A stretch of DNA of 9,613 bases from Pseudomonadota bacterium (GTDB lineage: Bacteria; Pseudomonadota; Gammaproteobacteria; Burkholderiales; JABEVD01): contig JAJZPK010000087.1 in assembly GCA_021811205.1 (NCBI GenBank), positions 1 to 9,613 on the forward strand. Direction: 5' to 3'. Positions 983-9,427 of this stretch are shown here, piece after piece; position 1 is the stretch's first letter, and each line of letters begins with the position of its first letter. A program made the translations under genes and the position numbers. The notes beneath the pieces were generated by a model. The model did not search any database, was not told where the DNA came from, and saw only the letters and a list, made by a program, of their open reading frames with translations.

Positions 983-1004
983 ATTGCGATTTTTTGATCG
1001 CAAT
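983..1004. promoter_or_regulatory. 8-bp inverted repeat (potential leader hairpin or operator)
   Basis: ATTGCGAT (983-990) and ATCGCAAT (997-1004) are perfect inverse copies separated by TTTTTG. In RNA this gives an 8-bp hairpin ending 24 bases before the start codon and about 11 bases before the ribosome-binding site. As DNA it could be an operator. Its right arm shares bases with the FNR-type box at 994-1007, so the two signals may interact or exclude each other. Confidence 0.45.
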
Positions 1005-1007
1005 CAA
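994..1007. promoter_or_regulatory. FNR/ANR-type binding site
   Basis: TTGAT-CGCA-ATCAA is an exact match to the FNR-family consensus TTGAT-N4-ATCAA. It is the only one I noticed in the window and it lies in the only intergenic leader. Its centre is 28.5 bases before the ATG at 1029. If transcription starts near 956 the box is downstream of the start, which suggests repression or roadblocking. Activation from the usual -41.5 spacing would put the transcript start inside the coding region. The match is seen; binding and direction of control are inferred. Confidence 0.5.
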
Positions 1008-1015
1008 TTCATTAT

Positions 1016-1023
1016 AAAGGGGA
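1016..1023 (+). promoter_or_regulatory. Ribosome-binding site fixing the ATG at 1029
   Basis: AAAGGGGA ends 5 bases before ATG 1029. It decides between this start and the in-frame TTG at 984, which has no Shine-Dalgarno sequence and would place 15 charged and mixed residues before the signal peptide. Confidence 0.75.
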
Positions 1024-1028
1024 TAGCT

Positions 1029-2351
1029 ATGTCTCGTTTGCGGGCGGCGGCTTTGTGCATCGCCATCTTCTGGGCGAGCGCAGCGCACGCTGCCGCGCCC
1101 GATTTGGGGAAAGCTGCGGAATTGATGCGGGAAGGGAAGCCCGCTGAAGCCTATAAACTGCTGGAACCCTTTGAATTCGAGATGGCTGGGGTGGTCAAAT
1201 ACGACTACCTGCTCGGCATCTCGGCGCTCGACAGCGGCAATCCGGCCAAGGCGACATTCGTCTTCGAGCGCGTGCTCGCAGTGGATCCCAACTATGCCGG
1301 AGCAAGGCTCGACATGGCGCGGGCCTACTATCAGCTGGGCGATCTTCCGCGCGCCAAGAAGGAATTTCAGACCGTTCTCGCATTGAATCCGCCTCCCTTT
1401 GCCAAGGCGACCATCAAGAAGTATCTTGCTGCCATAGAAGAGCGGGAAACAGGGGTGAGCACCAAGCTTTCTGGCTATGTCGAAGGGGCATGGGGACACG
1501 ACGACAACATCAACAATGCATTGTCTCAGGCGCAGATTGCAGTGCCCGCTTTCAACAATCTGCTTTTCACGCTGAACCCAACGAACCTCCAGACAGGCGA
1601 CGGCTATCTGGGGGTCAATGCAGGCATCGATCTGGATCACCATTTCGACCATACGTATTCAGCCTATGCCGGGGCAGACCTTCAAGAGCGATCGTATTTT
1701 TCCCAGTCTGCTTTCAACATGAACATCATCGACGAGCGCGCAGGCATGGGGTTCGGAGAAGGAAAGAATGTCGTCAGGGCTGGTTTCATCGGCGAGCAGT
1801 ACGACATGGGAAGCGCGCGATTCATGAATACGAGCGGCGCTAATGTTGAATGGCGGCATGTTCTGGACAAGAACAATATGCTCAATATCGGCGGGCAGTA
1901 CACGACCTACCGTTTTCCGCAGGTCGGTTTGAATATCAACGATTTCAACCAGAACATCGTGAGCCTCGCCTGGATGCACGCGGTTGCTGGCGGGAAAGGG
2001 CTGATCTTTTCCAGCCTGTTCACCGGAAACCAGCAGGCCGTGAACGGCAGGGCGGACGGGAACAGCACGCTCAAGGGGATCAGGGTGGGCGGCCAGTATT
2101 CGGCCACGCCGAAGTTCGATCTGTTTGCAAGCCTGGGCGGGATGGTGGGCAGCTATGCCAAGCAGAATGCAGCATTCCTGACCAATCGCAGGGATAATGC
2201 CTACGACATGGCCATAGGGATGATCTGGCATTACGACAAGTATTGGAGTCTGAAGCCGCAGGTCAAGAAGATGCGCAATCTGTCGAACATCCCCATCTAC
2301 CAGTTCGACATGACGGACGTGTCGGTGACCCTGCGGCGCGATTTCCAGTAA
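1029..2351 (+). CDS. TPR plus outer-membrane beta-barrel protein, Slam-like (DUF560 family)
   Basis: Predicted 440-residue outer-membrane protein. Residues 1-21 are a Sec signal with cleavage after AHA. Residues 26-140 are TPR helices (for example AKATFVFERVLAVDPNYAGARLDMARAYYQLGD) in the periplasm. From about 145 to the end the chain is beta-rich with alternating polarity, opening with a WGHDDNINNA motif and closing with NLSNIPIYQFDMTDVSVTLRRDF. The NPPP-x-A-x-IKKYLAAIE junction, the DDNIN motif and the SNIP-Y-x-V-x-L-x-F ending are what I recall of the surface lipoprotein assembly modifier (Slam) family, which moves lipoproteins and hemophores across the outer membrane. The length is close to known Slams. 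It heads the operon and the fecR gene follows after 10 bases. The likely passenger is the 1603-residue protein two genes on. The TPR/barrel architecture is well supported. Slam function is inferred, and other TPR-barrel porins remain possible. Confidence 0.8.
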   Translation: MSRLRAAALCIAIFWASAAHAAAPDLGKAAELMREGKPAEAYKLLEPFEFEMAGVVKYDYLLGISALDSGNPAKATFVFERVLAVDPNYAGARLDMARAYYQLGDLPRAKKEFQTVLALNPPPFAKATIKKYLAAIEERETGVSTKLSGYVEGAWGHDDNINNALSQAQIAVPAFNNLLFTLNPTNLQTGDGYLGVNAGIDLDHHFDHTYSAYAGADLQERSYFSQSAFNMNIIDERAGMGFGEGKNVVRAGFIGEQYDMGSARFMNTSGANVEWRHVLDKNNMLNIGGQYTTYRFPQVGLNINDFNQNIVSLAWMHAVAGGKGLIFSSLFTGNQQAVNGRADGNSTLKGIRVGGQYSATPKFDLFASLGGMVGSYAKQNAAFLTNRRDNAYDMAIGMIWHYDKYWSLKPQVKKMRNLSNIPIYQFDMTDVSVTLRRDFQ

Positions 2352-2361
2352 GGAGAGAAAC

Positions 2362-2829
2362 ATGCGCAAGCTATTGATGGTTTTGCTTCTGAGCAGTTAT
2401 TCCGGAATGCTGCAGGCCGCAGCCGGACATTTCCTGTTCATTTCGGGAAGCGTAAATGTGATCAACAAGACGGGACAGTCTCACGCTGCAACGAGAGGCG
2501 GTGAAGTGGACGTGGGGGATACCATCTCCACCGGTCAGGCTTCCACCGCTCAGCTCAAGATGGTCGACGGCGGTTTCCTTGCGGTCAGGCCGCAATCCGA
2601 GCTCAGGGTGGACAGCTATTCATTCCATGGCAAAAAGAGCGACAACAGTGCCGTTTCCCTGGTCAAGGGCGGATTCAGGGCAATCACCGGCATGATAGGC
2701 AAGAACAATCCGCAGAACGACATCGCCAAGACGCCGACAGCGACCATAGGCATACGCGGAACGGACTACGAAGCGGTCTATGTGCCTGCGACGCCTACCG
2801 GCAAGGGAGTGAACCATGAAAAGAATTAG
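2362..2829 (+). CDS. Short FecR-domain periplasmic protein
   Basis: Predicted 155-residue exported protein. The signal peptide is residues 1-19 with cleavage after LQA. The remainder is a FecR domain: SGSVNVINKTGQ, a GGEVDVGDTISTGQASTAQLKMVDGG core, LAVRPQSELRVDSY, LVKGGFRAITG and the signature TPTATIGIRGTDYEAVYV (GIRGTD at 130-135). Unlike classical FecR it has no cytoplasmic anti-sigma part and no transmembrane helix, so it is a stand-alone periplasmic domain of unknown ligand. A strong AAGGAGAG sequence at 2350-2357, overlapping the previous stop, supports the ATG at 2362. The chain stops about 20 residues after GIRGTD, earlier than many stand-alone family members that carry a further beta-rich tail. 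The last 14 bases overlap the next gene, implying translational coupling. A role with the neighbouring barrel or large protein is inferred from the operon only. Confidence 0.85.
   Translation: MRKLLMVLLLSSYSGMLQAAAGHFLFISGSVNVINKTGQSHAATRGGEVDVGDTISTGQASTAQLKMVDGGFLAVRPQSELRVDSYSFHGKKSDNSAVSLVKGGFRAITGMIGKNNPQNDIAKTPTATIGIRGTDYEAVYVPATPTGKGVNHEKN
2804..2809 (+). promoter_or_regulatory. Ribosome-binding site for the large secreted protein, inside fecR
   Basis: AGGGAG lies 6 bases before ATG 2816 and inside the end of the fecR reading frame. A TGA at 2810-2812 in the frame of the large protein rules out any start further upstream. Confidence 0.75.
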
Positions 2830-5800
2830 CCTGCTGCTCGCGGCACTCTATTCAAGCGCGGTACTGGCCGATGGCCCCGCGCAGACCATCGTGCTGCTCC
2901 ATAGCGGGGCGGTGAACGTTACCAATAATTTTAGCAATGTTTCGCAGCCGCTCACCACGCCGGGTGCTGCGGTATCGGTGAACGCGACGGGTTCGATCAA
3001 CTCCTTCAAGGGGGCGCTGCCTTCGACCGATACCCACAGTTCAACCACCAATACGGGCGGCAGCAGAAAGGGCTCTTCCGGTGGAAGTTCGCAAAGCTCG
3101 TCGAATACGCAGGGCAAGTCGTCCGGCGGTTCATCGCAGTCCGGGCAGAATGGAAGTTCGAATGGTTCATCTTCCCAATCGAGTTCGAGCAGCGGTTCTT
3201 CGGAAGCGAGTTCGAACGGTTCATCCGGCGGAAGCGCTTCTTCCGCTTCGAACGAATCGTCCGGCAATGGGACGTCTGCTTCCGGCGGTACAGGGGGAAC
3301 ATCAAGCGGATCAGGCTCGGAATCCGGCGCAAACATCACTTCGTCTGATACCGGATCATCCCAACCCGTGAACCAGGATAATGGCGGCACATCGACCGTA
3401 GGATCGTCGACAACACCGACGACCACGACGACCACGACGAACACGACGACTCCGTCAACCTCTTCGACTCCGCAGCAGGTTGTCACGCTACAAGGCTCAG
3501 GCGGAACAACCCTGAATACGACCCAGCAGACCGTCACCAGTTCGACGGGACAGACGACGACAATCCAACAGAGCATCTATGGGAATCTGGCGCAGACCGC
3601 GGCCGCTGCAGCCGCTTCGGCAGCTGGCACGACCAATTTCTCCCTTGCGCTGTCGACGTCTTCGATCAGCACGGCGATTGCTTCGGCGAGCAGTTCGATT
3701 TCCAGCATAACCAGTGCGCAGACGACTGCAAACAATGCAATTTCAAGTGCCGCTTCCGCGCAGTCCATCTACACTGCCAACGGTAGTTTCGCAGACAACC
3801 AGGCGGTGACGGCCAATACCGCCATCCAGACAGCCAATACTGCCATCCAGTCTGCCCTCACAGCCTTGAATTCCGCGCTCACCACTGCCAATGCCAGCCT
3901 GAATTCTGCGAACACCTACTTGAATGCAGCCACTACCCAGATTTCGAATATCGGCACCTCGCTGACGTCGATTTCAACCAACCAGGCGACGATCGGCAAC
4001 CATGCGTCCGCCATGACAATATTGACTACTGCAGGAGTGGGGCTTGTGACGTCGCCGACGACCATGCAGGGGGCTGTGACGGCGGCGAGTACTGCCGCAT
4101 CCCAGGCATCTGCACTGGAGCAAGCGGGGGACCTGGTCGATGCGCAGGCTGCGCTGGCAACAGCACAGGCTGCGCTGGGTATTGTAACGGCGGCAATCTC
4201 CGCCAACAGCTCCGCCACTGCCGCATCATCTGCGGCAAGCGCAGCGTCCACCACGATCTCGAATGTTTCGACCCAGATTGCCTCGATCAGCAGCAGTACC
4301 GCGACCATATCCAGCAATGCGCCGATCGCGGCCTACAACAATCCCGCCGTATCAGGCAATTTCATCGGGCATTTCATGATGCCGGTTGCGGCAACAGGGG
4401 GCTACAATCTCGGCGAGGCGCCGAACAATCCCGCGACACCCAACACTTCATTCGTGCTTGATGGCAACGGAAACCTGAACGAAGCGCGCAGCATGAGCTT
4501 CCAGGTGACCGATCCTTCCACCGCCACTGCGGTAACTTCGCCGATTTCGAGCGCGGATATCAAATGGTCAGGGGGCACGGCTGCAGATACGTTCAAGCTT
4601 GCCGACAACAGCATCTATGGCGGGCGCTGGGCCAATGCGACTGTGACCGTAACCGACACCAGCACCAGCACCAGCACCAGCACCAGCACCAGCACCAGCA
4701 CCAGCACCAGCACCAGCACCAGCACCAATGCCGTTACCACCTACAATCCTGCAGACAGTCTCTGGGCGGTGCTGCTTGCGCCGCCAGCGAACTACGTGCA
4801 ATCGCTCACCGGCACCGTGACCTATTCGCTTGCACGCAATACCACGCCTTTCGATGCTGCAGGGGTGCTCGGCACATTGAGTGGCGCGACGCTCACTGCC
4901 AACTTCACCAACCAGACAGTCGGCGCGTCGGTGAACCTCACCATGCCTTCCGGGGCGATGGCGGGCACCTATGCGGCTACAGGTACGGCGATGCCGATCG
5001 AGACCGCGACTTCAATCAACCCGGCTGGGTTTACAGGCGGCACCCAGGTCGTGAGCTGCACGACAGGAACCTGCGCTGCCGGATCGACGGGTTACAGCGT
5101 CGGGCTGGGAGGCAGTTTCGCCGGGAGTACGGCTTCCAGCGCAGGGCTCGCCTATTCCATCTGGCCGACTTCGACAGGTGCTGCTTCCGACATGGTGCAG
5201 GGGTTGGTCGCGTACACCGCATCAACCGCGCCGACGGTTGCAGCACTGGCGGCGTACAATGCCAACCAGATCGGCTACGCATTTGCCGATCCGACCTATT
5301 ATTCGAGTTTCTCGACCGGTTTCTACAACAGTCTGGGGATCGTGCCTGCATCGGCCATCACTTCCACGAGCGGCTCACCGACTTCGATCGTGGACAATAC
5401 CTATTCATGCTACGGATGCAGCGGCAATCTGACCCTCAGCATACTCGGTGCATCCTCTCCCGTGACTGGTAATGCGAATTCCTATGCGACGACCGGCATA
5501 CAATTCGGACGTTGGACGGTTTCCACGGGTGCGCAATCCGTTTTCAACGTGCCGCTCGGTGCGCAATTGGGTGCGCCTGCATCCTGGATGTACGGTCCGC
5601 AGGGCTATCTCGATTCAGCGATCGTTGTCGGCAGCAATACCGGGCCGCTGACGGGAAAGTTCAATTATGCGCTCGATGGCAGCAATGCACCGGTCGATAC
5701 GAATTCCGGGACCAAGGGAACACTCACCAGCGCGAGCCTTTCGGCCGACTTCACCAACCAGACAGTAACCGCGAATTTTGCGCTGACCATGGGATCGAAC

Positions 5801-7627
5801 AACTGGAGTGCGAGCACCAACGGAATGCCGATTTCGAGTGGCAAGTTCAGCGCATATTCAGGCAGCACGACGAATGCCATGTACGTCAATTTGAATGGCG
5901 CTGCCTGTTCGACCTGCGGCGGCAACCTGAACGGCGCTTTTACCGGGCAAAATTATGTGGGGGCGATTCTTTCCTACAATCTGTACGACAATAGCAAAGT
6001 CTACATCGAAGGCAATGCCGCATTCACCCGGGATGTGTCCGGCAATCCCACAGTGAGCAACGCCACGGCGGCGCCTACCGGGCAATACTGGGTCGCCGAT
6101 TATGGCGGCGGTTTGCTGCTTGCAAGCTCCGTGACGGCAAATACCGGAAATGTCCTGACTGCGTATTCCATGCCATCCATAACGGTTTCAGGGGTGACTG
6201 CATCCTATTCGACGAGCGTTTCCTGCACGACGTGCGCCGGGAATGCTTCGAGTGACGTGGCCAATACGGGGATTTACTACGGCACATGGGATGCAGGGAC
6301 ATACAGCAATACCAGTACCGTGAACTGGACGACCGCGCCTGGGCAGTATCACTGGATCACGGGCCCGGAAGTCGGCCCGGTTTATCTTGCTCAGGTGCTT
6401 ACCGGCACTTTGAATTTCACGCTCGATGGGGGAACGGCGCCGACCAACCAGTCGGGCATTGCGGGCACGCTGAATTCAGGATCATTGACCGTCAATTTCG
6501 ACAAGCAGACCGTGGGAATCGCGCTCGGGCTCACGGACAATGGCCATACCTGGAGCGTGACCACGCCGACAGGCAACGAAGCGCCCTTGACCGGGACCAA
6601 CGGCTTGGGCAACACCATGTTCTATGCTTACGGCAGTGGTGCGGTGCCCATGGCCAATACGCCCGGGAATGTGAATATTACAGTTGACGGCACCAACGCG
6701 AAAGGAAACCTTGCCGGGCAATTGACGGGAACAGGCATTACGGGCGCGATTCTGAATTACAGCTTGAGCAGTACAGTGACGACGCCGACGGCGGGGACCG
6801 AGAACGTGAACGGCGTTGCGGCTTTCGTCGCGCCGTCCGTGAGCAACACGGCAGCACCCTATCAGTTCATCGGCGGGTCGGCGACAGATGCCATCAGCAG
6901 CTCTGTCATATCGACGAACAGCTCAGGCGGAATCGGGGCGGGATTCGATGCGCAAAGCAGGATTGCTTCCGCGGGAGGCAGTCTTACAGGTTTCGATATC
7001 AATCCGGTCAATGGCAGCAGCAATCCGCTCACGCTGGCCATCGGAACCAGCACGGCAACCGATACGGGCAGCGATGCTGCGACCGGCATCACCTGGGGAC
7101 GTTGGCAGGGCGGTACGATCAATGTGACCGACAGGGTGACGGGTGTCGTCACCCCGGTCACCCTGGTAAGCAGCCTGCACTGGATCAGCGGTCCACTTGA
7201 AACTTCGCCTGTCACGCTGCCGACTTCCGGGACCTTTGCCTATACCTGGGCGGGAGGCACGCATCCCACCGACAACGCAGGCCTGACCGGCACGCTGAAT
7301 TCGGCAACGCTGACCGCCGATTTTACAGCGCAGACCGTCAATGTCGGGGTGAACGTGACCGTCAACGGCTCCAACATGGTTGCTTCCGCGACTGGCGTGC
7401 CCATTGTTCAGAAGGCGGCATTCAGCGCAAACTCTGCCATCCCCGCAGGCACGCCAGGCAATCTGACCGTGACCTGCAGCGGCACATGCGGCGCATCCGC
7501 TGCCGGGCAGATCGCTGGCGGCTTTACTGGTGCTGGCGGTACTGGTGCGGGAATCATGTACGCGCTGCAGCGTATCGGCGGAACGAGCCCGGGCAGTATT
7601 GCCGGCGTGGCGGCATTCCACAGGTAA
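2816..7627 (+). CDS. Giant secreted protein with Ser/Thr linker, helical stalk and four TbpB-like barrel repeats
   Basis: Predicted 1603-residue exported protein. Residues 1-18 are a Sec signal (cleavage after AVLA) with no lipobox Cys. In order follow a short beta-like segment (to about 65), a Ser/Gly/Thr-rich linker (about 71-220), an Ala/Ser/Thr-rich likely helical stalk (about 255-500), and four diverged repeats (505-800, 801-1070, 1071-1337, 1338-1603). Each repeat carries GRW or GTW, LTGT-x-Y, GTL-x-SA-x-LTADF-x-QTV, a GMPI-like turn, G-x-FTG and a terminal GVAAF-like strand. These motifs resemble the TbpB beta-barrel handle domain found in Slam-dependent proteins. The only ten cysteines fall in five close pairs. 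There is no autotransporter barrel or terminal aromatic residue. It is the third operon gene, and a Slam-like barrel sits two genes upstream, so it may be that barrel's passenger. Ligand and function are unknown: haem or iron capture, adhesion or a surface layer are all possible. Confidence 0.85.
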   Translation: MKRISLLLAALYSSAVLADGPAQTIVLLHSGAVNVTNNFSNVSQPLTTPGAAVSVNATGSINSFKGALPSTDTHSSTTNTGGSRKGSSGGSSQSSSNTQGKSSGGSSQSGQNGSSNGSSSQSSSSSGSSEASSNGSSGGSASSASNESSGNGTSASGGTGGTSSGSGSESGANITSSDTGSSQPVNQDNGGTSTVGSSTTPTTTTTTTNTTTPSTSSTPQQVVTLQGSGGTTLNTTQQTVTSSTGQTTTIQQSIYGNLAQTAAAAAASAAGTTNFSLALSTSSISTAIASASSSISSITSAQTTANNAISSAASAQSIYTANGSFADNQAVTANTAIQTANTAIQSALTALNSALTTANASLNSANTYLNAATTQISNIGTSLTSISTNQATIGNHASAMTILTTAGVGLVTSPTTMQGAVTAASTAASQASALEQAGDLVDAQAALATAQAALGIVTAAISANSSATAASSAASAASTTISNVSTQIASISSSTATISSNAPIAAYNNPAVSGNFIGHFMMPVAATGGYNLGEAPNNPATPNTSFVLDGNGNLNEARSMSFQVTDPSTATAVTSPISSADIKWSGGTAADTFKLADNSIYGGRWANATVTVTDTSTSTSTSTSTSTSTSTSTSTSTNAVTTYNPADSLWAVLLAPPANYVQSLTGTVTYSLARNTTPFDAAGVLGTLSGATLTANFTNQTVGASVNLTMPSGAMAGTYAATGTAMPIETATSINPAGFTGGTQVVSCTTGTCAAGSTGYSVGLGGSFAGSTASSAGLAYSIWPTSTGAASDMVQGLVAYTASTAPTVAALAAYNANQIGYAFADPTYYSSFSTGFYNSLGIVPASAITSTSGSPTSIVDNTYSCYGCSGNLTLSILGASSPVTGNANSYATTGIQFGRWTVSTGAQSVFNVPLGAQLGAPASWMYGPQGYLDSAIVVGSNTGPLTGKFNYALDGSNAPVDTNSGTKGTLTSASLSADFTNQTVTANFALTMGSNNWSASTNGMPISSGKFSAYSGSTTNAMYVNLNGAACSTCGGNLNGAFTGQNYVGAILSYNLYDNSKVYIEGNAAFTRDVSGNPTVSNATAAPTGQYWVADYGGGLLLASSVTANTGNVLTAYSMPSITVSGVTASYSTSVSCTTCAGNASSDVANTGIYYGTWDAGTYSNTSTVNWTTAPGQYHWITGPEVGPVYLAQVLTGTLNFTLDGGTAPTNQSGIAGTLNSGSLTVNFDKQTVGIALGLTDNGHTWSVTTPTGNEAPLTGTNGLGNTMFYAYGSGAVPMANTPGNVNITVDGTNAKGNLAGQLTGTGITGAILNYSLSSTVTTPTAGTENVNGVAAFVAPSVSNTAAPYQFIGGSATDAISSSVISTNSSGGIGAGFDAQSRIASAGGSLTGFDINPVNGSSNPLTLAIGTSTATDTGSDAATGITWGRWQGGTINVTDRVTGVVTPVTLVSSLHWISGPLETSPVTLPTSGTFAYTWAGGTHPTDNAGLTGTLNSATLTADFTAQTVNVGVNVTVNGSNMVASATGVPIVQKAAFSANSAIPAGTPGNLTVTCSGTCGASAAGQIAGGFTGAGGTGAGIMYALQRIGGTSPGSIAGVAAFHR
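3026..3477 (+). repeat. Ser/Gly/Thr-rich low-complexity linker
   Basis: Residues 71-220 of the large protein are dominated by Ser, Gly and Asn, with degenerate SSNGSS/GSSGGS units. A poly-Thr run with one Asn interruption follows near 3410-3455. The segment is probably disordered and spans between the signal-proximal part and the stalk. Its biased composition also keeps a long antisense frame open, which I treat as an artefact. Confidence 0.75.
3578..4315 (+). repeat. Ala/Ser/Thr-rich helical stalk with heptad (21-bp) duplications
   Basis: Residues 255-500 are rich in Ala, Ser, Thr, Asn and Gln with regularly spaced Ile/Leu, suggesting long helices or a coiled-coil-like stalk. Seven-residue units recur in tandem: TANTAIQ twice at 3809-3850, and AQAALAT/AQAALGI around 4143-4184. 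Prolines are almost absent, apart from one near SPTTMQ at about residue 418. Helicity is inferred from composition. Confidence 0.6.
4328..5215 (+). repeat. TbpB-like domain repeat 1 of the large protein
   Basis: Residues 505-800. It contains GGRW (602-605), QSLTGTVTYSLARNTTPFDA, GTLSGATLTANFTNQTV, a TAMPI turn, the C748/C753 pair, GGSFAG and the closing GLVAY. It is the longest copy because the loop after GRW carries the (Thr-Ser)11 expansion at 4658-4726. Its first part (NFIGHFMMPVAATGGYNLG and onward) is less like the other copies. Confidence 0.65.
4658..4726 (+). repeat. Perfect hexanucleotide microsatellite (ACCAGC)11 plus ACC
   Basis: Eleven uninterrupted copies of ACCAGC (4658-4723) and a half copy encode a (Thr-Ser)11-Thr run inside repeat 1. 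The unit is six bases, so copy-number changes keep the frame and only lengthen or shorten the loop. The DNA is perfectly periodic even though synonymous codons were available, which indicates recent slippage. Confidence 0.97.
5216..6025 (+). repeat. TbpB-like domain repeat 2 of the large protein
   Basis: Residues 801-1070. It contains FGRW (897-900), SWMYGP, LTGKFNYALDGSNAPVD, GTLTSASLSADFTNQTV, NGMPI, FSAYSG, NLNGAFTG and the closing GNAAF. It has two CxxC pairs, C865/C868 and C1031/C1034. Confidence 0.7.
6026..6826 (+). repeat. TbpB-like domain repeat 3 of the large protein
   Basis: Residues 1071-1337. It contains GTW at 1156-1158 in place of GRW, YHWITGPE, LTGTLNFTLDGGTAPTNQ, GTLNSGSLTVNFDKQTV, NLAGQLTG and the closing GVAAF. 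It has one CxxC pair (C1137/C1140) before the GTW strand and lacks the second pair seen in the other copies. Confidence 0.7.
6827..7624 (+). repeat. TbpB-like domain repeat 4 of the large protein
   Basis: Residues 1338-1603. It contains WGRW around 1427-1430, LHWISGPLE, TSGTFAYTWAGGTHPTDN, GTLNSATLTADFTAQTV, TGVPI, the C1554/C1558 pair, IAGGFTG and GVAAF, two residues before the C-terminus. It reads as the cleanest match to the TbpB-type barrel pattern and, being terminal, is the best candidate for the translocator-recognised domain. Confidence 0.7.
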
Positions 7628-7634
7628 GCTAGAT

Positions 7635-7656
7635 GCGCCCTAGTAACCCAGGGCGC
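7635..7656. terminator. Possible shared terminator hairpin between convergent genes
   Basis: GCGCCCT (7635-7641) and AGGGCGC (7650-7656) form a perfect 7-bp GC-rich stem with an 8-base loop. It begins 7 bases after the stop of the large gene and spans the feoB stop codon. No T-run follows on either strand, so it is not a textbook intrinsic terminator. Position between convergent genes is the main argument. Confidence 0.35.
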
Positions 7657-9427
7657 GGGCACCTTGGTAGAAAACGAAGCTGACCAGCCAGGCAAGACCG
7701 AGAGACCAGGCCAGCGAAAGCGCCATGAAGCCAGAGCTTTTCGATTCGCTCTTCAATGTCGCGATCGTGGAAAGGCATGGCGTATAGATCAGGGTGAATA
7801 GCATGAAGCTGTAGGCCTGAACCCAGTCGAGCTGATGCGCCATGAGCGCCATCAATCCGTTTCCCCCGATGCCGTAAATTACGGCAAGCGATCCGATCAC
7901 GATTTCCTTGGCGACGAAACCGAAAATGAGGGCAACCGCAAGCTGCTGATTGATGCCGATCGGGTCGAGCAGCGGGGAGAAGAGCTTGCCGATCATGCCG
8001 GCCAGGGTATGGGAACTGGCCGGGGGAACGCCTATGGGGAAATGGGTGAGCAGCCAGACAAGTACGACGCCGGCCACGATGAATTTGCTCGCCCGGTTCA
8101 GGAAATGCCTGACTTCATGCCATCCTCTCAGCAGCATCTGCCTCAATGTCGGAAAGCGGTAGGGCGGGACCTCCAGAATGAAAGGCTCCGTGTTTTTGTA
8201 TTGCCGCTTGAACAGGATCGCAGTCAGGAGTGAGGTGGCGAAGCTGAAGAGGTAAAGGCTGAACAGGACAAGCGGCGCCGCTTTTTGGGAAAAGATGGCT
8301 GCGGTGATGAAAATGAATACCTGCAGCCTTGCCGAGCAGAGCGAGAACGGGATGACCAGCATGGTCAGAAATCGCAGGCTCCTGGTGCGCATCACGCGTG
8401 TGCCCATCAGCGCAGGAACGTTGCAGCCGAAGCCCATCAGCAGCATGACGAAGCTGCGCCCATCCAGCCCAAGCCGCGACATCAGCGCATCCATCAAGAA
8501 TGCAGCCCTGGAAAGATAGCCGGTATCCTCTATGATGGCCATGAAGAGGAAGAACAGAATGATGATGGGCACGAACGTGGCTACCGTTCCCACGCCATTG
8601 TAGATGCCGTCCAGCAACAAGCCCCTGGCAAATTCAGGCAGAGGGGAAAGCATCGGCTCAAGGGCTGCGTGCCTGAAAGCGTCAAGCAGCCATGCGACGC
8701 CATCCTGGAGCGGCTTGCCGAACAGGAATATCGCCTGGAAGGTGAGGTACATCACGAAGAAAAAGAGCGGCAGCCCAAGCCAGGGATGGAGGAGAAGCCT
8801 GTCCAGGCGAGTGGTAAGATTATTCGGGAGCTGAATGGGTACCTGTACCGTGCTTTTCAGTACACGCTCCATTTCGGATTCCAGCCTGTCGTCCTGGGAG
8901 AGCTTTGTCTGCAGATCCTCGAGCCTCAATGGGCTGCTTTCGTTCAGCATTTTTTCGAGCAGGCCGCGAACTTCCTTGTAACCGTTGCCGTACTTTGCGC
9001 TCATGAGCTGAACGGGAAGATCGAGCATGTCGGCCATTTTTTCGGCGTTGACGGTGATTCCGAATTTCTTGGCTTCGTCTGCCATGTTGAGGAGCAGGAC
9101 GGCGGGAAACCCGAGTTGCTTGATCTGAAGTACCAGGGAAAGCTGCCGCTCGATCTGGGAAGCATTGAGAATGATCAGCAGGGCATCGACGCTGTTGTGC
9201 TCCAGAAAATGGCGCACCACCTGCTCATCTTCCGAAAAGCCGTGAAGATCGTAAATGCCTGGAAGATCCACGATTTCTATCATGCTTGACCCGATCAGCA
9301 CCTTCGCCCCGAGCAGATCGACGGTCACGCCCGGCCAGTTGCCGGTTCTTGAAGACGCGCCGGTGATCCGGTTGAAGAAGGTGGACTTGCCCGTATTGGG
9401 CATCCCCAGAATGGCGATGCGTTTCAT
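7640..9427 (-). CDS. feoB: Ferrous iron transport protein B (GTPase-linked permease)
   Basis: Predicted 595-residue inner-membrane Fe(II) transporter. The N-terminal G domain has GMPNTGKST (8-16), T35 as G2, DLPG (54-57), NMAD (114-117) and SAK (143-145). A helical spacer runs to about residue 210 (RLDRLLLHPWLGLPLF), followed by multiple hydrophobic segments to the C-terminus. The two FeoB gate motifs are present: GCNVPALMGTR with C335 and PFSLCSARL with C364. AKEIVIGSLAVIYG and TPCLSTIATLKSE are also characteristic. The protein is shorter than E. coli FeoB (773 residues) but has no broken motif, so it belongs to the compact forms. Its ATG overlaps the feoA stop (ATGA), implying translational coupling. 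It converges on the large secreted-protein gene with a 12-base gap. Confidence 0.97.
   Translation of the reverse strand: MKRIAILGMPNTGKSTFFNRITGASSRTGNWPGVTVDLLGAKVLIGSSMIEIVDLPGIYDLHGFSEDEQVVRHFLEHNSVDALLIILNASQIERQLSLVLQIKQLGFPAVLLLNMADEAKKFGITVNAEKMADMLDLPVQLMSAKYGNGYKEVRGLLEKMLNESSPLRLEDLQTKLSQDDRLESEMERVLKSTVQVPIQLPNNLTTRLDRLLLHPWLGLPLFFFVMYLTFQAIFLFGKPLQDGVAWLLDAFRHAALEPMLSPLPEFARGLLLDGIYNGVGTVATFVPIIILFFLFMAIIEDTGYLSRAAFLMDALMSRLGLDGRSFVMLLMGFGCNVPALMGTRVMRTRSLRFLTMLVIPFSLCSARLQVFIFITAAIFSQKAAPLVLFSLYLFSFATSLLTAILFKRQYKNTEPFILEVPPYRFPTLRQMLLRGWHEVRHFLNRASKFIVAGVVLVWLLTHFPIGVPPASSHTLAGMIGKLFSPLLDPIGINQQLAVALIFGFVAKEIVIGSLAVIYGIGGNGLMALMAHQLDWVQAYSFMLFTLIYTPCLSTIATLKSESKSSGFMALSLAWSLGLAWLVSFVFYQGARALGY

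Follow-up and report, generated by a model that had tools for sequence, protein, structure and literature searches.

Outer membrane proteins of type 11 secretion systems (T11SS) combine a TPR domain in the periplasm with a C-terminal barrel of 14 strands. T11SS have been described together with cargo that carries one to three handle-barrel pairs (PMC8406197; PMC12282271), and predicted Slam cargo with two to three such pairs is reported from Sphingomonas and Psychrobacter (PMC12282271). The Slam model presented in PMC9090332 includes a C-terminal specificity motif and the movement of an unfolded chain through the protein. According to PMC12282271, cargo is neither known nor predicted for the majority of T11SS outer membrane proteins, and those that have been verified come from the animal-associated cluster 1.

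The locus analyzed here lies in a window of 9,613 nucleotides, by which we mean the whole stretch of DNA studied. It shares with the type 11 systems of the DUF560/PF04575 family (Slam1, NilB, HrpB, and TepS) a PF04575 protein with TPR and barrel parts and, as those systems are described in PMC8406197 and PMC12282271, an adjoining exported protein with a C-terminal handle-barrel lobe. It differs in that a FecR gene is a near-constant neighbor here and in that such loci come from MAGs whose titles are mostly Gallionella, Nitrosomonadales, Burkholderiales, or Proteobacteria. The exported protein has the predicted lobe fold of TbpB, hemophilin, and fHbp cargo, but it comprises four lobes (2–6 in relatives) within 1603 aa, lacks a lipobox, has a long linker and a stalk, and carries repeats that PF01298 misses. 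The Sphingomonas and Psychrobacter proteins likewise have several TbpBBD domains behind a low-complexity N-terminus, but they are described as having two to three pairs and Pro/Thr repeats and as being mostly lipoproteins (PMC12282271). The original prediction held that known passengers have one or two barrels; since predicted cargo with two to three pairs is already published (PMC12282271), the four lobes represent an extension. The main text of PMC12282271 contains neither the word FecR nor the word Gallionella, and in the open-licence literature, which leaves absence unproven, we found no paper on a FecR domain that is part of T11SS cargo by fusion or that is split between the cargo and a second protein.

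Organization of the Locus

The ORF list and a profile search give five coding regions in the window. The profile search identifies the end of an adenylate/guanylate cyclase gene at 3–917 on the plus strand. It is followed on the same strand by genes for a Slam-like TPR-plus-barrel protein of 440 aa (1029..2351), a small exported FecR protein (2362..2829), and a giant protein of 1603 aa (2816–7627, from the ORF list), and a convergent FeoB gene occupies 7640–9427 on the minus strand. The three middle ORFs are tightly packed on one strand and, judging from this layout, are arranged as an operon. An alternative start of the barrel ORF is found at TTG 984, Shine-Dalgarno-like sequences precede the FecR start (AAGGAG) and the giant start (AAGGGAG, 2803–2809), and the FecR and giant ORFs overlap in different frames. 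A scan of the window for promoters and terminators returned counts near the shuffle level (5 vs 3.2 and 4 vs 6.2), the window contains no tRNA, and window positions 984–2829 have no plasmid relatives at the DNA level.

The nearest loci are in MAGs titled Proteobacteria and Burkholderiales bacterium, and the host is a bacterium related to freshwater iron-oxidizers; among the literature matches listed, no paper names Ferrigenium kumadai, a cultured relative that encodes a homolog (P0091). An adenylate/guanylate cyclase homolog adjoins the unit in 7 of 45 loci, lying upstream in L001, L002, L003, and L041 and downstream on the opposite strand in L010, L030, and L033. The adjoining FeoB gene could be taken as a sign of iron uptake, a reading that we dropped because, in the available sequence of the 45 loci, FeoB is visible at L001 only.

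The Barrel Protein

The first gene of the unit was predicted to encode a DUF560-like TPR-barrel protein, and PF04575 indeed matches it with 39.8 bits against a cut-off of 22. The match spans model positions 7–288 of 288 and residues 168–454 of the TTG-started frame, and the motifs DDNIN and SNIPIY are both present. In the predicted structure (pLDDT 89.0) a TPR domain (approximately 1104–1454) is followed by 14 long strands (approximately 1458–2345), the number anticipated for the barrel, and the barrel part aligns best with CymA/OmpG. Generic TPR models match the protein; the curated Slam N-terminal TPR model PF24575 (TPR_Slam) stays below its cut-off (14.6 vs 35.2 bits), which distinguishes it from the described type 11 systems.

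The first Foldseek match of the model is BcsC (E 6e-12), and there are weak matches to EpsL (24.1 bits, cut-off 275) and BBP2_2 (16.5 bits, cut-off 23.7). These similarities would fit a protein of the BcsC/PelB/EpsL type that exports a polysaccharide, with the giant being a matrix protein that leaves the cell otherwise. We consider this very improbable in view of the nearly full-length PF04575 match above cut-off, the 14 strands with their best alignment to CymA/OmpG, and the predicted Slam-cargo fold of the adjoining giant. One genome (G013) encodes, besides the FecR-type system, a second DUF560 gene (contig C100, 6303–8116; 62.4 bits), which adjoins a frame of 384 residues that PF01298 matches weakly (21.8 bits, under its cut-off); no FecR match was found on that contig.

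The Giant Protein

The giant has its own ribosome-binding site and begins with a Sec-type signal peptide (2816..2869) that is typical by eye and has no lipobox, and its start is conserved in relatives. Putative C-terminal FecR strands (2870..3025) are followed by a Ser/Gly/Thr-rich linker (3026..3595) and an Ala/Ser/Thr-rich stretch (3596..4345), which, from their composition, are probably disordered and a helical stalk, respectively. The remainder is predicted to form four lobes: lobe 1, with handle and barrel (4358..5230, residues 515–805); lobe 2, which has the least direct support of the four (5255..6037, residues 814–1074); lobe 3 (6080..6847, residues 1089–1344); and the C-terminal lobe 4, the candidate Slam-recognition lobe (6860..7624, residues 1349–1603).

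Several lines of evidence support the four tandem repeats that had been read from the sequence. A repeat profile finds copies at residues 576–803, 871–1073, 1128–1340, and 1402–1603, each with E 3.5e-53 or lower. Because this profile was seeded with the giant's own four copies, firmer evidence comes from the fold and from the other 110 homologs, each of which contains 2–6 copies. The copies are divergent, and a BLAST search of the giant against itself returns the self-match only. A confident model (pLDDT 87) shows lobes of the TbpB/hemophilin/fHbp type, each a handle plus an 8-strand barrel, as the original prediction proposed, and all 20 PDB matches found by Foldseek at E<=0.001 belong to TbpB (17) or hemophilin (3). 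Their TM-scores are low (0.16–0.44 by target length) because the alignments span several lobes. The 50 VIA rows listed for the model are likewise all of this class and comprise TbpB, LbpB, fHbp, NHBA, HpuA, hemophilins, and one 'surface lipoprotein'.

The repeats are linked to known cargo through the structure model, since direct sequence links failed. The suggested PF01298 search matches none of the four repeats of the window and none of the 45 sequences of repeat alignment A3; by sequence, the four lobes match no Pfam family. In PDB sequence searches, neither the giant alone nor alignment A3 gave a match, and the 32 matches of alignment A1 up to E 10 include no TbpB-type protein. A different domain inside three related arrays does pass PF01298 (34.7, 42.3, and 40.8 bits, cut-off 26), and hhalign found no match between the core repeats and this neighboring domain. 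A PF01298 search alone would thus have missed the window's repeats.

The repeat array ends at most 10 aa from the C-terminus in 107 of the 110 homologs, and its last repeat is the best-scoring one in 81 of them, where 30 would be expected by chance. Both the position of the array and the conservation of its last repeat fit a putative C-terminal recognition lobe. At 4657–4727 the window contains a perfect array of the hexanucleotide CACCAG (11.8 copies), which encodes Thr-Ser repeats and falls in a low-confidence loop of lobe 1; the run is shorter in a 97% identical homolog (P0001), so the length of the array varies without frameshift.

Co-occurrence of Barrel and Repeat Cargo

Among 150 genomes from the family of genome G010, the repeat is present in 47 and the barrel in 77; 45 genomes have both, 2 have the repeat alone, 32 have the barrel alone, and 71 lack the two (Fisher P 5.7e-15, without control for kinship). 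The two genes thus co-occur, as predicted, in 45 of the 47 repeat-bearing genomes. Their pairing is also evident from position: for 43 of 52 repeat arrays, a barrel gene of the same strand lies no more than 8 kb upstream. The contigs of the other nine arrays lack a barrel; in seven cases no more than 2.2 kb separate the contig start from the first repeat, so that the contig was likely cut, and two arrays (in G126 and G154) are on the minus strand. We regard it as very likely that the giant is the cargo of the barrel protein, with export being predicted.

The original observation of a three-gene unit is therefore confirmed by the ORFs, the PF04575 and PF04773 matches, and the repeat copies. Its interpretation largely holds: the barrel matches PF04575, the predicted fold of the repeats is TbpB-like, and the genes co-occur. 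It needs amending with regard to the PF01298 search and to the number of barrels in published predicted cargo, and it missed the linkage, fusion, and split of FecR. The locus is a real and coherent unit, and its most interesting feature is FecR with the split of the domain.

Linkage and Fusion of FecR

The FecR ORF of the window matches PF04773 with 39.7 bits (cut-off 24) over model positions 1–80 of 97. We surveyed 45 barrel copies with BLAST scores of at least 300 bits, and in 42 of them a FecR gene starts less than 300 bases downstream of the barrel. The three misses are the first copy in L004 and two loci near a contig end (L008, with 216 bases left, and L015, with 2 kb left). Across 28 of these genomes, FecR domain matches total only 100. 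The neighbor that accompanies the barrel clade most constantly is FecR.

Of the 42 pairs, 19 have FecR fused to repeats and 16 have it as a short gene of its own; in 4 it is split, and in 3 the contig ends within it. Where repeat cargo exists, FecR is mostly fused to its N-terminus: a FecR motif lies in the first 260 residues of 89 of 105 homologs (P0006–P0110), and fused proteins reach 2949 aa (L033). The short separate genes encode 225–311 aa and have no repeat cargo behind them. In L026 (11266–16234), two consecutive cargo genes that both carry FecR follow one barrel, and the second of these, like the cargo of L018 (11265–12917), encodes approximately 550 aa with FecR and a single C-terminal repeat.

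Lipoprotein-type genes lie upstream of the barrel in L011 (3114–4673), L014 (8082–9815), L016 (4458–5990), L017 (8085–9785), L019 (8287–9831), L020 (8167–9804), L022 (8301–9821), and L023 (8250–9830). All eight proteins have a lipobox-like L-x-A-C (three behind a later start) and all eight scanned match PF17517 (IgGFc_binding). PF17517 occurs in 5 of 28 genomes, always adjoining a barrel-FecR pair, and these proteins may be a second, non-TbpB type of cargo.

A FecR Domain Apparently Split in Two

A FecR gene between barrel and giant had been predicted; the gene is there, but its ORF, which by eye begins with a signal peptide, encodes only the N-terminal part of the domain and stops soon after GIRGTDYE. 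Including the window, five split cases were seen (window, L001, L002, L003, and L041). In an alignment of 26 sequences, the split FecR ORFs end soon after GIRGTD[HY]E, and the terminal GTYxKVNxGET...PNQMGFAG of their relatives is missing from them. In L003 and L041 the missing end is found behind the giant's signal peptide, with 29.6 and 30.0 bits over model positions 129–177, where the best of 400 shuffles scores 6.6. The corresponding scores in the window, L001, and P0002–P0004 are not significant (-0.7 to 2.8 bits), that of the N-terminus of the window's own giant being -0.7 bits. An hhalign alignment of the tail is in register when L003 and L041 are included (P 0.002, probability 14%) and gives no in-register match when they are left out. 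Since the split domain is demonstrated in part of the clade, kinship suggests it for the window.

In the barrel tree, all rows labelled split (five seen, four assumed) fall to the same side of a branch whose support is 100/100. The split rows adjoin the fused L021; fusion probably preceded the split, although the root is arbitrary. The overlap of the two ORFs in different frames could also stem from an ordinary fused gene that was missequenced or misassembled. Such an error is extremely improbable, as the same split, with a start of the giant at its own signal peptide, recurs in L001, L002, L003, and L041, and as the split rows group together in the tree.

A motif R-x-[TS]-A-V-V-D, chosen after looking at the sequences, is found behind FecR in 63 of 89 fused giants (shuffled rate 0.002 in the fused set) and in 8 of 16 short FecR proteins, and is absent from all four split giants checked. 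In the fused homologs (P0006–P0110) it sits approximately 125 residues past GIRGTDHE. It may be a docking or processing site.

Possible Roles of FecR

A Lysobacter cluster described in PMC11233812 resembles the present locus in having a FecR gene beside a TbpB homolog and a Slam gene, and its combination of RpoE-type sigma factor, FecR, TonB-dependent transporter, TbpB, and Slam could suggest that FecR regulates expression of exporter and cargo through a sigma factor. As described there, however, the Lysobacter FecR is a regulator like that of ferric citrate uptake and neighbors a sigma factor and a TonB transporter, whereas FecR here fails to match the regulator model and is either fused to the cargo or split with it. 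The regulator model NF007296 matches 0 of 26 linked FecR domains at E<=0.01, whereas three unlinked FecR proteins score 70.6–279.7 bits (cut-off 385) and three score 15–17 bits. The linked protein is a signal peptide plus a FecR domain, fused to cargo in 19 of 42 pairs, and neither the ORF list nor the profile search places a sigma-factor gene in the window. FecR as a sigma regulator is thus unsupported and, in our view, highly implausible.

The best NCBIfam match of the window's FecR is the model of Lsa33, a FecR-type surface protein of Leptospira (39 bits, E 5.3e-10), which matches all 26 linked domains, though far under its cut-off of 420. FecR could accordingly be a further outside domain of the giant that is exported and binds surfaces or matrix. 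We consider this distinctly improbable, given that FecR is tightly linked to the barrel even where the giant is absent and that Lsa33 also matches seven of seven unlinked, non-regulatory FecR proteins.

FecR might also serve as an export adaptor that binds the TPR domain and brings cargo, giants or lipoproteins, to the barrel with no permanent anchor, fusion then being a means of efficient delivery. This is the main rival to a tether, albeit an unlikely one. It would account for FecR being a separate short gene beside the barrel in 16 of 42 pairs and for the PF17517 lipoprotein upstream in 8 of 13 short-FecR loci examined, where, with a lipoprotein as cargo, a FecR tether is not needed. FecR is nonetheless mostly a covalent part of repeat cargo (89 of 105 homologs), and covalent fusion would be odd for a reusable adaptor.

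LapA-type adhesins have a domain that stays in the periplasm (PMC13090378) and show weak profile similarity to the linked FecR domains, but they use type 1 secretion, and retention is inferred for the proteins studied here. The LapA retention-module profile NF033682 matches 26 of 26 FecR domains weakly (best E 3.2e-10; in the window 23.1 bits, below the cut-off of 50). We rejected this match as proof of retention; because six of seven unlinked, non-regulatory control proteins match as well, it is no specific sign of it. A LapG-type protease is encoded in 18 of 47 repeat genomes versus 19 of 103 others (Fisher P 0.014), and in a smaller set of 28 genomes it was found in 13 of the 20 that have repeats and in none of the 8 that lack them (P 0.0025). 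Release controlled by LapG is not relied on, as the association is weak in the 150-genome set, the two sets overlap, and kinship is not controlled.

A Model for Export and Retention

We favor, with a probability of roughly 0.6, the hypothesis that the locus encodes an environmental type 11 variant with a giant cargo, in which a periplasmic FecR domain tethers the giant on the surface. Computation gave the protein families and their predicted folds as well as the gene order, the conservation, and the FecR split of the relatives. We infer from the signal peptides, judged by eye, that all three proteins would reach the periplasm via Sec. The TPR-plus-barrel protein would move the unfolded giant through its 14-strand barrel, probably with the C-terminal lobe first, and the four TbpB-like lobes would fold outside at the end of the stalk, any ligand of theirs being conjectural. 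The N-terminal FecR domain would not be passed but would stay in the periplasm at the TPR domain, with the Ser/Gly linker threading the barrel, so that no lipid anchor would be needed to hold the giant on the cell. In the clade of the window, the FecR domain would come from two polypeptides, each with a signal peptide, that pair in the periplasm.

The tether draws on the published order of Slam export and on the C-terminal conservation: if a C-terminal motif is recognized and the chain is moved through (PMC9090332), the N-terminal domain comes last and could remain inside. Taken separately, FecR as a tether is a tentative proposal at somewhat less than even odds, and the chance that the two FecR parts pair is about even. 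Against the model stand the low TM-scores of the Foldseek matches, the NF033682 matches that lie below cut-off in the window and are nonspecific, the nine arrays whose contig lacks a barrel, the N-terminus of the window's giant, with no significant FecR-tail score, the presence of a LapG-type protease in only 18 of 47 repeat genomes, and the short FecR proteins that lack repeat cargo in 16 of 42 pairs.

A large environmental group with many iron-oxidizer relatives gains a concrete cargo family that is invisible to PF01298, and FecR is a new candidate component of T11SS. The tether, if true, would be a lipid-free way of holding T11SS cargo on the cell, and the natural split version makes this model testable. 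It is conceivable, though doubtful, that these loci form a separate T11SS branch in which FecR is a near-obligatory third component and acts as a periplasmic stopper, itself split in the window's clade. Such a stopper would hold the multi-lobed giant on the cell without lipid, two independently exported halves completing one fold in the periplasm, and its split form would then allow attachment to be made or undone without proteolysis.
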